Of a DNA stretch of 64,000 nt, positions 2,351-13,346 are shown piece after piece. How positions within the stretch are numbered: the first letter of the stretch is position 1; every line of letters begins with the position of its first letter. The notes below the pieces were generated by a model that had not been told where the DNA came from, did no database searches, and was given only the letters and a program-made list of their open reading frames with translations. The position numbers and the translations under genes were made by a program. The stretch lies in assembly GCA_964030475.1 (NCBI GenBank), contig CAXIPT010000005.1, positions 4,258,650-4,322,649 on the forward strand, given 5' to 3'. Source of the stretch: Tethya wilhelma. Lineage: Eukaryota; Porifera; Demospongiae; Tethyida; Tethyidae.

Positions 2351-5300
2351 ATGGCGGAACTCTCTAGTAAAGAGAGAGGAGTAGTGAAGGAAGGCTGCGT
2401 GGATATATTGAGTGGTAAAGTGATATTCAGCGGAGGTTTCAAGTTCAAAAGGAGAATACTTGTTCTCACTACAACCACTCTGAAGTACTATGTCACTTTA
2501 TATGATGGTAACAAAGAGGTATGACCGTATGAGGGCTAAGGCATAGATTATATAATCTATGGCTATAAGGGCTGTGTGTGTGTGAGCTACCTGTGTATAT
2601 AGCTGAGTGCCATAATTATTGTTGCCAGCCTTCAGACAGAAACATCTAATCAACAACTAGATCATGACTAATGTAGAATTTAGAGATAACAGCTTTGTAC
2701 TGTTAATTTTTGCAGACAAAAGGACGTTTGAAGGGGCAGGTAGAACTTTGCAAGATATCAGTAATTGAAAAGGCTCTACATGGAATTTTTGATGGCTCAA
2801 TTCATGCTTATGCTAATTCTTTTCAGGTGATTTATAAACTTCAGGGGGGTTTTTTTGCTGTTTTTCACTCAGCCAACTATCTATTTGTATTTTAGGTTGC
2901 TCATGGAGCCATCACACTCTACTTTGCAGCACCAAGTGAGTTTGAACAGAAAGATTGGATATCACAATTGAGACAAAGTGAGCATTATAATTATCAATAC
3001 AATGATTTAGTAATGGATCCGGAGAGAGTGTGCATTACTCATCTGCTCAACTGATCACACTGACAGATTGTCGCCATCAGCAATGGAATTCCCTGTGTGA
3101 TCGCTACCATCCTGGGATGTTCACAGGTGATAAGTGGCCCTGCTGTGATTATAACCACAAACATGCTATGGGATGCACTTGTACTTTTATTGGGAAGCAG
3201 TTGCGTCCCCTTCCATTGGAACCACCTCAAAGGCCACATATTCGTGGGCAGTCCCATCCCCTTCCTAAAGAACAATCACATGTCCATAGGCTATCCCAAC
3301 CCCTTCCAAAAGAGCCACCTCTACATAGGCCATCCCAACCCCTTCCAAAAGAGTTACCTAAGGTACCACATCTCCATAGGCAATCCCAACCCCTTTCTAA
3401 AGAGCTACCTCCGTTTCTTCAATACCCTCGTGATCAACTATCAGTCATTCTTGATACCCTTCCTGTGAGTTGATTTCAGACTATATTCATTCAGCGTGTA
3501 ACTTAATTGCTAGCTGTATAGGGGTCCAGTTGCTATACATGTTCATATTTTACAGTTTAATCGTATAATTAACCTATTCTTCCTAAATATATTCCGCCTG
3601 CGTGCCAGCCTGCCCAGCCCCGCCACTGGCAGACTACATATACACTGTTGTTTTTACTGATTTTCAATCTTTATTATGTGATGCTAACTACTTAGTTTTA
3701 CTAATTGATACATGCTTCTGTTAGTTGTTGTGACACCCTTTTAGTTTACTTCAAGCACACCATCATGCATGTATAGCTTGAAACATGCTGTTTAGATCGA
3801 TGATTTGTGTGCTCAAGGTTCAGGCAGTTCAAGTACAGGAATGACCAGAGATTTTTTTTGTTTGTTTTGAACAATAGTTTATAGTTTTAATTTGTTTATC
3901 AAAATACCTTTAACTGAAAATTAAGGGTTTTAGTTTTAGTTATAGTTAACAAAAGCATCAGTTTTTCATTCAAACTACACATAACACTATGCTCACATTT
4001 AGGTAACACATGAATATGATTATCCTAAATTCGGCAATTTTGGTATTGATATTGAAATCCAACAAACAAATATTGAGTTTGATGTGATAGCACTGTATGA
4101 CTGGCCTGGAGTAGAACTTAAGGATCTTCCTATCACAAAATTTCAAAGGCTCACCATTACAAATGATTTTTCTGAAGCTATCCACTGGGATTTCAAGTGG
4201 AAAGCAAGAGATGCTATGGGGTGAGATCATTAATGTAATGTATTAGGGTACCACTTTATACTGTGTTCTTTATAATTATACCATAAAGCTAGACTGAATT
4301 TTTGAGTATTATAAAAATCAATTGTTGCTGTTTTGGTGGATTACCAACAATCCATGAAAAATGTTTCAGGATCATAACGCAATATTATGAGGTGGGGCTG
4401 CTAGTAGTAAAAATTTTGTAAAAATAAGCAGTGTAGGCAAAATGAAAATTCTGAAAATAAGCAGACTCCTGCTTGGATATGTCTTGATTCTGAGTTAGAA
4501 TAGTCATGCATGCAATCCCTTAGTTAATTGGGATGAAGTATCAGTAGGTATGCAAATAAAATCTTTGTTAGATCATAAGATTTGGCCATAAAAAAATGAA
4601 GTAGTCATGTGCCGAAGTTCGGAGTGTTGCCTTGTTTCATTGCTTTTTCAGCACTGCCCATTCCTACACTGTAAACAAATATCAAAGAACATACTTCAGA
4701 AGAAATATAGTTACTGTGTACAGTCAAAGTTGGCTCAATGCCTTTGTTTCTCTGAAAATCACGTTCAAGTAAGTCATGATCAGTTAGGAAGGGAGAAAGA
4801 AAGAAAACAAAATTGCACTTGCCAGTGTTCTAGGAATTTTCTGCCAGTTTTCTTGGTGCATCCAGTTAGAAAACTCCCTAAGAAAAGCCTCTAGGCATGT
4901 CTAAAGTCTTAGCTATCTTTATCTATTTTAGCTATCTTCTTCTCTTTCTCTGAGAGTTTACAAGCAGTAACATTTTGTATTGTGCCAATGGGACAGGTGG
5001 CTCATTCCATACAGACTACCGTGCGTATGATACTGCATGTATGTGGAGGTTTTTTTGATCAGACGTGATAGTAGGCTGTTGTGCATACACAAATATACAG
5101 TAAAGAAGGCTATATTCCTGAAAGATGTGTTCGAAGAGTGGAAAAGCAAATGTAAGTATCTTTATCAGTGTGTGAATACGGCTTAGCTCTGTAGGAATGT
5201 TGCACTGAAAATTCTAAAACTATCATGATCTATATAGACTTTTACAGTTTGAGTAGAAGCAATTTGAAGTGAATATTGGCCCTGAATGCATGCAGTGACT

Positions 5301-11300: not shown

Positions 11301-13346
11301 AACAAACAAATGGTCATGACATTCACTTCAAGCGACGATGGATTTCCATTACTGATACTGGTGGTCAGCCTCAGTTCCAAGAGGTGGTATCAGTATTTCT
11401 CAGACAAACCTCACTCTACATTCATGTACAGAAGCTTTGTGAAGCTCTCTCTGAGAAGCCAGCCATTGAATATTTTGATGAGCAAGGAATGCCACTCTCC
11501 CAACCTGTTAGATCTCCTCTCACAAATGAAGAGCATGTGAAATGTGCTGTACGGTCTCTGCAGTCACTCAGGCACAACGTTAGTGAAGATAAATCGCCAA
11601 AAATGTTGTTTGTTGCTACCCATGAAGATCTGGAGGACCTGTGTAAAGAAAGCAGAGAAGAAAAGGAAGAAAAAATGGCAAAGATTTTGCAGCCTCTCAC
11701 CTTACAGAACAACGTGATTTACTGTGGAAATCGTATGGATAAAGTTCTGTTTGGCATCAATGCTAAATCACCAGGAGACAAAGAAAAGAAGATAGCCACA
11801 GATATCAGAAACATCATCAACACACTCTTCTCACCAACTGCCAGAAAAATTCCCCTCCGTTGGTTTGTACTCCAGCTGAAGTTGCAGGAGGTAGCACGAA
11901 TTCTCCAGAGGCAGATCATCACCAAGAAGGAGTGCCTGGAAGCTGCTCACAGGATCCACTTGAACAGTGAAGAAGCCTTGGATGCTGCTCTTGAATATCT
12001 TGATGAGCTCAACATCATCTTCTACTATCCCAAGATCCTGCCTGACGTGGTCTTTTGCAGCATTCAAGTTGTGATTGACAAACTAACAGAGCTTGTCGAG
12101 CACTTGTACAAGCTGATGGAAGATAATGCCGATGATCATACTGCCAGAATGGGAGACTGGAAGAGGTTTCGTGACTTTGGTCTGATCACCGAAGCGATCC
12201 TTACAGCATTTCCATCTCACTACTCCCCCGGTGTCTTCACTGTTGACCACTTGCTCACTCTCTTTCGAGCCCTTCTAGTCATCGCTGACTTTCAGAAGAA
12301 TGACCAGGAAGAGCAGGAGTACTTTATGCCCTGTCTCTTGCACACCATTGAACCTGAAGAGGTTGAAAAGCACATAACCGACTGCAAATCCAAGGTCCCT
12401 CCTCTGATCCTCCACTTTCCCAACGGTCTTCTGAGTGGTGTGTTCTGTTTTACAATCGCTTCTCTTCTCTCCAGTGAAAACAACACACCTGCTCCGTGGA
12501 AGTTGAATCAACATCGAGATGGCAGTCCAAAGTGTCTACACCGAAACATTGTGCAATTCACTATTCCTGGTTATTTAGGATTTGTAACGCTAGTAGACAG
12601 ATTCGAATTCATTCAGATCATTGTATCAAGTCCGCCTTCATTTTGCACAGAGCTTTGCCCCTTGGTGAAGAATGCAGTGATAGTCTCACTAGCTAGAGCA
12701 ACCAATCTCCTCAACTACATAGACTGCCAGACTGAAGAGGCAATCCTGTGTCAGTGTGAAGAAGGTTTTCCTCATCCCGCTAATATCCTTCCAGATCCCT
12801 CAGGGAAGAAATGGTGGCAATGTACAGAGGATAACTCTGTATGTGGAGAGTTGGAAGAGGTCAATGACATCTGGAAGGACAAAGAAATTGACATTTATGG
12901 ATCTTTACCAACAAATCCCTCTATAGAAGGTGAGAATAGACACTTAGCTTGCTTATTTACGTGAGTGTGTATGCATATTATCCTTATATATTTTTCTTTA
13001 AATTTTAAATAATTCGTTCGCCTATATGCTCATTCTAGTTCTTATTCTATCTCATCATGCAGACTCTGATTATGATGAGCTGTCGCTGACTCTCCTGCAA
13101 GTCACCCGTGCTCTAGAGAGTCTTGTGGATTGGCATAAGCTGGGGTTGCTATTGGAGATTCCCAAATCAAAGCTGGATATGATAAGACTGGACTATGACA
13201 AGTATGGGCAAGCTCGCCAAAGGGATGAAATGCTTGATATGTGGATTCAATCAGATGCACAAGCTTCTTGGGAGAAACTATGCATTGCTCTTGAAAATAT
13301 GAATGAGAGAATATTAGCTTCACAGATAAGAACTGAGTACTGCTAG
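2351..13346 (+). CDS. Tec-like pseudokinase fused to a ROC/COR-like GTPase and Death domain
   Basis: Eighteen exons whose phases all agree: 2351-2518, 2716-2826, 2896-2977, 3067-3464, 4003-4220, 5101-5151, 5639-5693, 6020-6084, 6393-6586, 6802-6869, 7115-7215, 7545-7639, 8027-8157, 8644-8827, 9321-9478, 10587-10686, 10752-12929 and 13063-13346, about 1546 codons. In order: PH domain (1-120); Btk zinc motif (His135, Cys146, Cys147, Cys157, the family spacing); repeated proline-rich stretch; SH3 (IALYDW); SH2 (starting [15 protein letters not shown], with FLVRNS); tyrosine-kinase domain to about 716 (HRDLGARN, RWAAPEV, SDVWSYG, RPSF); P-loop GVAGSGKT (755-762), DTGGQ (about 928), ATHED (about 1015), COR-like segment from IPLRWFVLQ (about 1093); C-terminal Death-like domain. 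Codon 598 (8698-8700) is an in-frame TAA where DFG should be, so the full protein may not be made. The kinase/GTPase junction is a 65-bp phase-1 intron with no visible promoter or terminator. Confidence 0.8.
4388..5030. repeat. Foldback MITE, copy B (degraded)
   Basis: Lies in the intron between the SH3 exons of the kinase fusion gene. It shows the arm words GTAGTAAAAATTTTG and AATGAAGTAGTCATGTGCCG, and ends near 5030 with the family end block (AGACTACCGTGCGTATGAT). The first arm is shortened and diverged, so this looks like an old copy. Confidence 0.65.
8430..8512. repeat. Foldback MITE, copy C (single-arm fragment)
   Basis: A lone arm fragment in the intron before the broken DFG exon: ATACTTTTTACCGCACTGCC is followed by a TTCCTACACTACTTATTTTT-like tract and TTTTTACTACTTG. 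No partner arm is visible nearby. Confidence 0.6.
9779..9895. repeat. (CA)n microsatellite
   Basis: An imperfect CA/CACG dinucleotide tract in a kinase-gene intron. The short cysteine/valine-rich ORFs read across it are artefacts of the repeat. Confidence 0.9.
10480..10524. other. Assembly gap (27 N) followed by poly-C run
   Basis: Ns at 10480-10506 are followed by a C homopolymer with one T, in the intron between the kinase C-lobe exons 15 and 16. Missing sequence here could hide a small exon, although the phases of the flanking exons (0 to 0) need none. Confidence 0.95.

Follow-up and report, generated by a model that had tools for sequence, protein, structure and literature searches.

Whether a Tec-type kinase, a Roc-COR GTPase and a Death domain can be parts of one protein is the question raised by a locus of the sponge Tethya wilhelma, lying at positions 2351-13346 of the 64,000-nucleotide stretch analyzed here (the window; positions 4,258,650 to 4,322,649 of contig CAXIPT010000005.1, assembly GCA_964030475.1). 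On balance, we lean towards a single gene, made of a Tec-derived head with a non-catalytic kinase, a predicted Roc-COR tandem and a C-terminal Death domain in the order of DAPK1, in which the GTPase would be a switch controlling Death assembly. If this is true, Tec kinases and Roco proteins, two families relevant to human disease, are united in one chain.

Gene model and domain composition

The splice model rebuilds a chain of 18 exons on the plus strand, running from an ATG at 2351 to a TAG at 13344-13346 (4641 nt spliced). The introns are all of the GT-AG type (17/17), and every exon is phase compatible. Exon 16 (10587-10686), the last of the kinase, ends with a donor of matching phase and without a stop, and is joined to exon 17 (10752-12929) through a 65-bp phase-1 intron (10687-10751), the junction being covered by a stretch free of N (10507-13346). 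The phase-compatible chain that a sequence-only reading of this DNA had proposed, including its short junction, was thus recovered. The open frame was not, since codon 598 is an in-frame TAA (8698-8700, exon 14), located at the glycine of the DFG motif; that reading mentions neither this codon nor the run of 27 N in intron 15. Aside from this codon, the frame is open and all splice sites are intact. Splicing around the stop within exon 14 was considered and rejected, as no donor in phase with an AG after the TAA was found by eye inside this exon. The phases would permit products without exon 14, by skipping exons 13-14, 14-15 (342 nt) or 10-16 (837 nt). From the stop, a truncated protein would be expected of this allele.

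According to Pfam profiles run on the spliced protein, exons 1-4 (2351-3464) encode a PH domain (8.5e-8, 33.1 bits for a cut-off of 25.1), the BTK zinc motif (7.2e-6, 26.2 bits, cut-off 24) and a proline-rich linker. They are followed by an SH3-like domain in exons 5-6 (4003-5151), whose SH3_1 match (0.0021, 18.1 bits) stays below the cut-off of 22.9, an SH2 domain in exons 7-9 (5639-6586; 8.7e-19) with the sequence FLVR, the phosphotyrosine motif of SH2, and a degenerate Tec-type tyrosine kinase domain in exons 10-16 (6802-10686; PK_Tyr_Ser-Thr 1.6e-75). The GTPase occupies exon 17, and exon 18 (13063-13346) contains the Death domain (1.2e-6, above cut-off), as had been claimed, together with the stop TAG. 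The order is, therefore, PH, BTK motif, weak SH3, SH2, tyrosine kinase, GTPase and Death; ankyrin repeats have no Pfam match in the spliced protein.

Exon 17 carries GSGKT, DTGGQ and THED, which we take to be the G1, G3 and G4 GTP-binding motifs. The closest solved folds to a structure model covering exon 17 alone are the Roc-COR regions of LRRK1 and LRRK2, and the exon is predicted to contain Roc and COR in tandem, in agreement with the ROC/COR-like GTPase first suggested. Its closest database relatives are sponge proteins sharing 27-29% identity (among the matches listed, the best 120 of 150). This search covered 150 proteins among 7983 candidates, and a second one, 1 among 6908; as database searches work by shared words, absence from them constitutes weak evidence.

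A degenerate Tec-type kinase

The best PDB sequence matches to the kinase are mostly BTK and ITK, and the lowest E-values in the protein search belong to fish or reptile BTK or TEC-type kinases (31 matches among 7993 candidates). With the kinase catalytic motifs defined as usual, alignment to BTK (chain 8fln_A) reveals that the ATP lysine is replaced by Ile (codon 7154-7156) and the alpha-C glutamate by Pro (codon 7199-7201), at positions presumably corresponding to BTK Lys430 and Glu445. The DFG aspartate is replaced by Gly (codon 8692-8694), the motif reading GF-stop, and HRD is retained. Because the lysine, the glutamate and the aspartate are gone, the domain is, as far as sequence can tell, a Tec-derived pseudokinase and not an active Tec kinase. 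The assignment to the Tec family thus holds for the PH, BTK, SH2 and kinase profiles, and is qualified by the missing catalytic residues and by the sub-cut-off SH3.

Another Tec gene of the same genome (L052, G000:C8:4488200-4493400) has kept lysine, glutamate, DFG and HRD. Its last exon closes the frame with a stop, after the kinase, and no GTPase match with an E-value below 1 was found at this locus (5.2 kb). Its exons are distributed over the two strands, the final pair being doubled as an inverted repeat, which reflects an inversion or an assembly fault. Around DFG, the codons of the window gene and of the intact C8 gene differ at several bases, so the stop is hardly a single base-calling slip. 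The exon 16 donor lies near the position of the C8 stop (SETTDE-stop, versus a run of 15 residues in the window), which hints at how the fusion might have originated: the last Tec exon may have gained a splice donor near the old stop, and may have captured the cassette located downstream.

Self-comparison of the window, followed by alignment, also uncovered an inverted truncated copy of exons 6-11 (SH3 end, SH2 and kinase start) at 39293-44137 on the minus strand. It shares the Ile and Pro changes with the window kinase, and these changes, therefore, predate the copy. The ratio of nonsynonymous to synonymous substitution rates (dN/dS) between gene and copy is 0.45 (0.26-0.81; P of ≥1 = 0.005) over 177 codons. 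In a neutral simulation, the probability of at most one stop is 0.002, 0.40 and 0.73 at 0.05, 0.01 and 0.005 substitutions per site, respectively, which makes a prolonged decay of the window gene appear unlikely. The copy adjoins a cytochrome-b5/fatty-acid-desaturase gene (37599-38930, minus strand; Pfam) and holds a dispersed repeat.

A family of predicted Roc-COR cassettes

The genome searched comprises 124.6 Mb in 204 contigs, and the counts obtained are lower bounds, as 55 of 427 candidates were scored in the GTPase-exon search (123/1398 and 61/790 in the others). The GTPase exon has at least 69 matching pieces and, besides the window, at least 13 places show 51-73% identity to it. A lone fusion without a family was, therefore, rejected. 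Twelve of these places are named P1-P12, a partial one at C8:4186618 being left out, and P6 and P10 might each be half of a single gene. The exon start follows a phase-1 AG acceptor in all 11 places where it could be read; in more distant paralogs (e.g., L021), it is not always phase 1.

The modules found upstream of the cassettes are diverse. CK1-like kinase exons precede P1, P3, P4 and P12 (Pfam Pkinase 9.4e-11 for the P1 piece), and a kinase-like open reading frame (ORF; Pfam 8.8e-17), itself behind ankyrin-like repeats seen by eye, precedes P5. Pfam identifies a RING-TRAF-MATH ORF upstream of P9 and an FN3 ORF upstream of P11. Inspection by eye adds a Rab-like ORF for P2 and HDDC3- and OGFOD-like genes for P6, while nothing was recognised upstream of P8. 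A Death-like ORF seen by eye at P7 was discarded, Pfam finding no family in it. Head-to-cassette splicing was traced (by eye) for P3 only, the other paralogs being linked to their heads by adjacency. Death exons accompany the window gene, P1-P4, P6/P10 and P12; none were found in the loci examined for P5, P7, P8, P9 and P11.

The GTPase motifs are kept in 12/12 cassettes compared. For the GTPase-Death region, dN/dS between the window gene and P6, P3 and P1 is 0.128, 0.140 and 0.093, respectively, with synonymous divergence (dS) of 1.5-3.0, near saturation; these exons look to be under constraint. In the tree, the window gene and P6 (assembled by hand from L015 and L019, which lie 21 kb apart) are grouped with a support of 0.960, and their placement among the other cassettes has a support of 0.127. 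As the GTPase exon recurs with differing upstream modules, these comparisons place the window gene in a Roco family built by mix and match.

The reverse, LRRK-like order also occurs in this genome: at least five long open frames (1598-1771 amino acids), of one exon each, have a COR-A match and then a kinase match downstream (G000:C1:18109335-18111758, C1:18121691-18123850, C1:13985716-13987938, C1:25074335-25076242 and C14:251417-253405).

Interpretation and alternative explanations

An uninterrupted product of this gene would likely serve as an immune or cell-death switch. PH and SH2 would recruit the protein to membrane lipid and phosphotyrosine, and the pseudokinase would serve as a binding or conformational part instead of an enzyme. 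With no working kinase left, the target of the Roc-COR switch would be the Death domain: as the Roc-COR dimer exchanges nucleotide, Death would become more or less exposed, and would recruit other Death-fold proteins. In this allele, translation of the main product would stop at the TAA in exon 14, short of the GTPase, and the fused product would require another allele or in-frame splicing without exon 14.

Besides the stop, several observations weigh against a single switch gene. The COR-A (18.4 bits, cut-off 35.3) and Roc (17 bits, cut-off 27) profiles remain below cut-off, and the model of exon 17 was built on six sequences, with a mean predicted local distance difference test score (pLDDT) of 70.7. 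The near-saturated dS blurs the constraint seen in the GTPase-Death exons. No Tec head was detected upstream of P1-P8 (tblastn at 1e-3, 3.7-6 kb each), nor of P9, P11 and P12 (E-value of 1, 4 kb each); with 0 of 11 searched among the 13 places (P10 and the partial C8:4186618 were left out), no second instance of the Tec fusion came to light. Within exon 17, the Met of an MDLF stretch is unique to the window, and the paralogs retain that of EAM, located eight residues further, so a start inside exon 17 is conceivable.

This last point leads to the idea of two neighboring genes, a Tec pseudokinase gene that terminates with exon 16 or beyond it, and a Roco-Death gene whose separate start has gone unseen. 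In its favor, the conserved Met is joined by the occurrence of the GTPase exon without a Tec head elsewhere, and by a Halichondria protein (P0121) of 864 residues that contains the GTPase and no extra head domain in Pfam. Nevertheless, the gap between the two would measure 65 bp only, exon 16 closes in a phase-matched donor without a stop, and the paralogous exons begin at a phase-1 acceptor wherever read, which makes this arrangement improbable. An assembly join, bringing together exons 1-15 and 16-18 from different places, would be located at a run of 27 N (10480-10506) beside simple sequence in intron 15, and the C8 Tec exons on both strands indicate that rearranged assembly does occur. However, the run lies between exons 15 and 16, away from the kinase-GTPase junction, exon 16 is itself Tec-like and shares N-free sequence with exon 17, and the phases agree across the gap; such a join is very improbable.

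The stop could also mark a gene that died recently, or a null allele, which is a rather unlikely alternative. The TAA would end the protein after the catalytic loop, the mRNA, in which four more exon junctions follow the stop, would be degraded, and the fusion would have existed without being made any longer from this allele. The several base differences from the C8 gene make a base-calling slip improbable, and a loss dating back no more than 0.005 substitutions per site agrees with a single stop in the neutral simulation. On the other hand, the remaining frame is open with all splice sites intact, and the GTPase-Death exons bear a signal of constraint, although such a signal outlasts death for a while. 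As for an active Tec kinase driving or gating the GTPase, which the sequence-only reading implied, HRD is retained, as is the general kinase profile, but the replacement of three catalytic residues and the stop in DFG leave it hardly credible; the interpretation given in that reading survives in part.

A broader proposal, which we consider quite doubtful, is that sponges possess an integrated-decoy system. The phase-1 Roc-COR(-Death) cassette would have been captured repeatedly behind Tec, CK1, kinase-like and TRAF genes, and non-catalytic kinases would be the bait by which an attack on the real pathway is sensed, with the GTPase as switch and Death as alarm. Plant nucleotide-binding leucine-rich repeat receptors (NLRs) with integrated decoys offer a parallel. 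All six kinase-like heads read (window, P1, P3, P4, P5 and P12) depart from canonical catalytic residues: P1 has SFG for DFG, P4 has GFG plus Gln for Lys after HRD, and HRD is replaced by HRH in P12 and HYS in P5. Against this proposal, the sole residue change in P3 is Asp for Asn after HRD, its activation segment being partly missing, and no lysine exon could be located for P12. Three further CK1-like loci, with no cassette within the 3.1-3.2 kb examined, are also mixed: C1:10.73 Mb retains both HRD and DFG, C3:1.92 Mb has YRD, and C1:17.67 Mb is without an activation segment, so that, in this small sample, loss is not limited to fused heads. Catalytic loss in fused heads may thus be taken as a lead.

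Returning to the single switch gene, it would indicate a family of Roco switches in sponges, put together by mix and match and comparable to NLRs, and it suggests more than one origin of the DAPK1 plan (kinase, Roc-COR, Death), each with a different kinase. Since one genome contains both an unfused Tec that is intact and a fused one that is degenerate, the fate of a captured kinase becomes testable.

Surroundings of the gene

The locus is preceded by the end of an EMP70/TM9SF-type gene (1202-1567) and followed by a HIRA-type WD-repeat gene (13745-16603), both on the plus strand (Pfam). A dispersed repeat of about 1 kb, which looks like a non-coding transposable element, occurs in both orientations at 299-1306, 42314-43327, 49254-49985, 54415-55151 and 58501-58979, its copies being 74-80% identical. 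The segment 27034-27650 is self-similar at shifts that are multiples of 34 bases, and looks like a tandem array. A cytochrome-P450-like exon, recognized by eye on the minus strand, is found at 17724-17895 and 61340-61511, on opposite strands 43 kb apart, with 85% identity.

Comparison with known systems

The window protein resembles the Tec kinases (BTK, ITK, TEC) in its PH domain, BTK motif, weak SH3, SH2 and kinase, and differs from them by the loss of catalytic residues and by the Roc-COR and Death domains after the kinase. The sponge Rocos Em0014g283a (presumably from Ephydatia muelleri) and LOC135346702 and LOC135350856 from Halichondria panicea are the relatives at 27-29% identity in the GTPase region. 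They have no kinase head, Pfam placing Kelch ahead of the GTPase region in Em0014g283a and PDZ ahead of it in LOC135346702; these two have no Pfam match to Death, and that of LOC135350856 is just below cut-off. LRRK1 and LRRK2 provide the nearest solved Roc-COR folds to the exon 17 model, whereas their leucine-rich repeats (LRR) stand ahead of Roc-COR and the kinase behind (PMC6320773), an order that the window gene does not have.

Lineage-specific Roco sets are described elsewhere. Trichoplax has at least 17 such genes, with CARD, Death, TPR and LRR as partners (PMC4104024), and brown algae combine Roc-COR with varied partners, for which an immune role is proposed (PMC11378527); the accessible portions of these two sources name no Tec head. 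No Tec-Roco fusion was found described in the literature searched, a coverage from which subscription journals are mostly absent.

The closest architectural parallel is DAPK1, from the third Roco group, which shares kinase, Roc-COR and C-terminal Death and is without LRR (PMC6320773). According to the same source, the DAPK1 kinase is restrained by GTP binding of Roc; according to PMC4104024, kinase activity is not lowered when nucleotide binding is disrupted. DAPK1 is an active Ser/Thr kinase with ankyrin repeats, whereas the window protein has a degenerate Tec-type head. The order kinase, Roc-COR, Death is already known from DAPK1, and the Tec head is the new part: judged by its predicted domains, the window protein is ordered like DAPK1, and is not a DAPK1.

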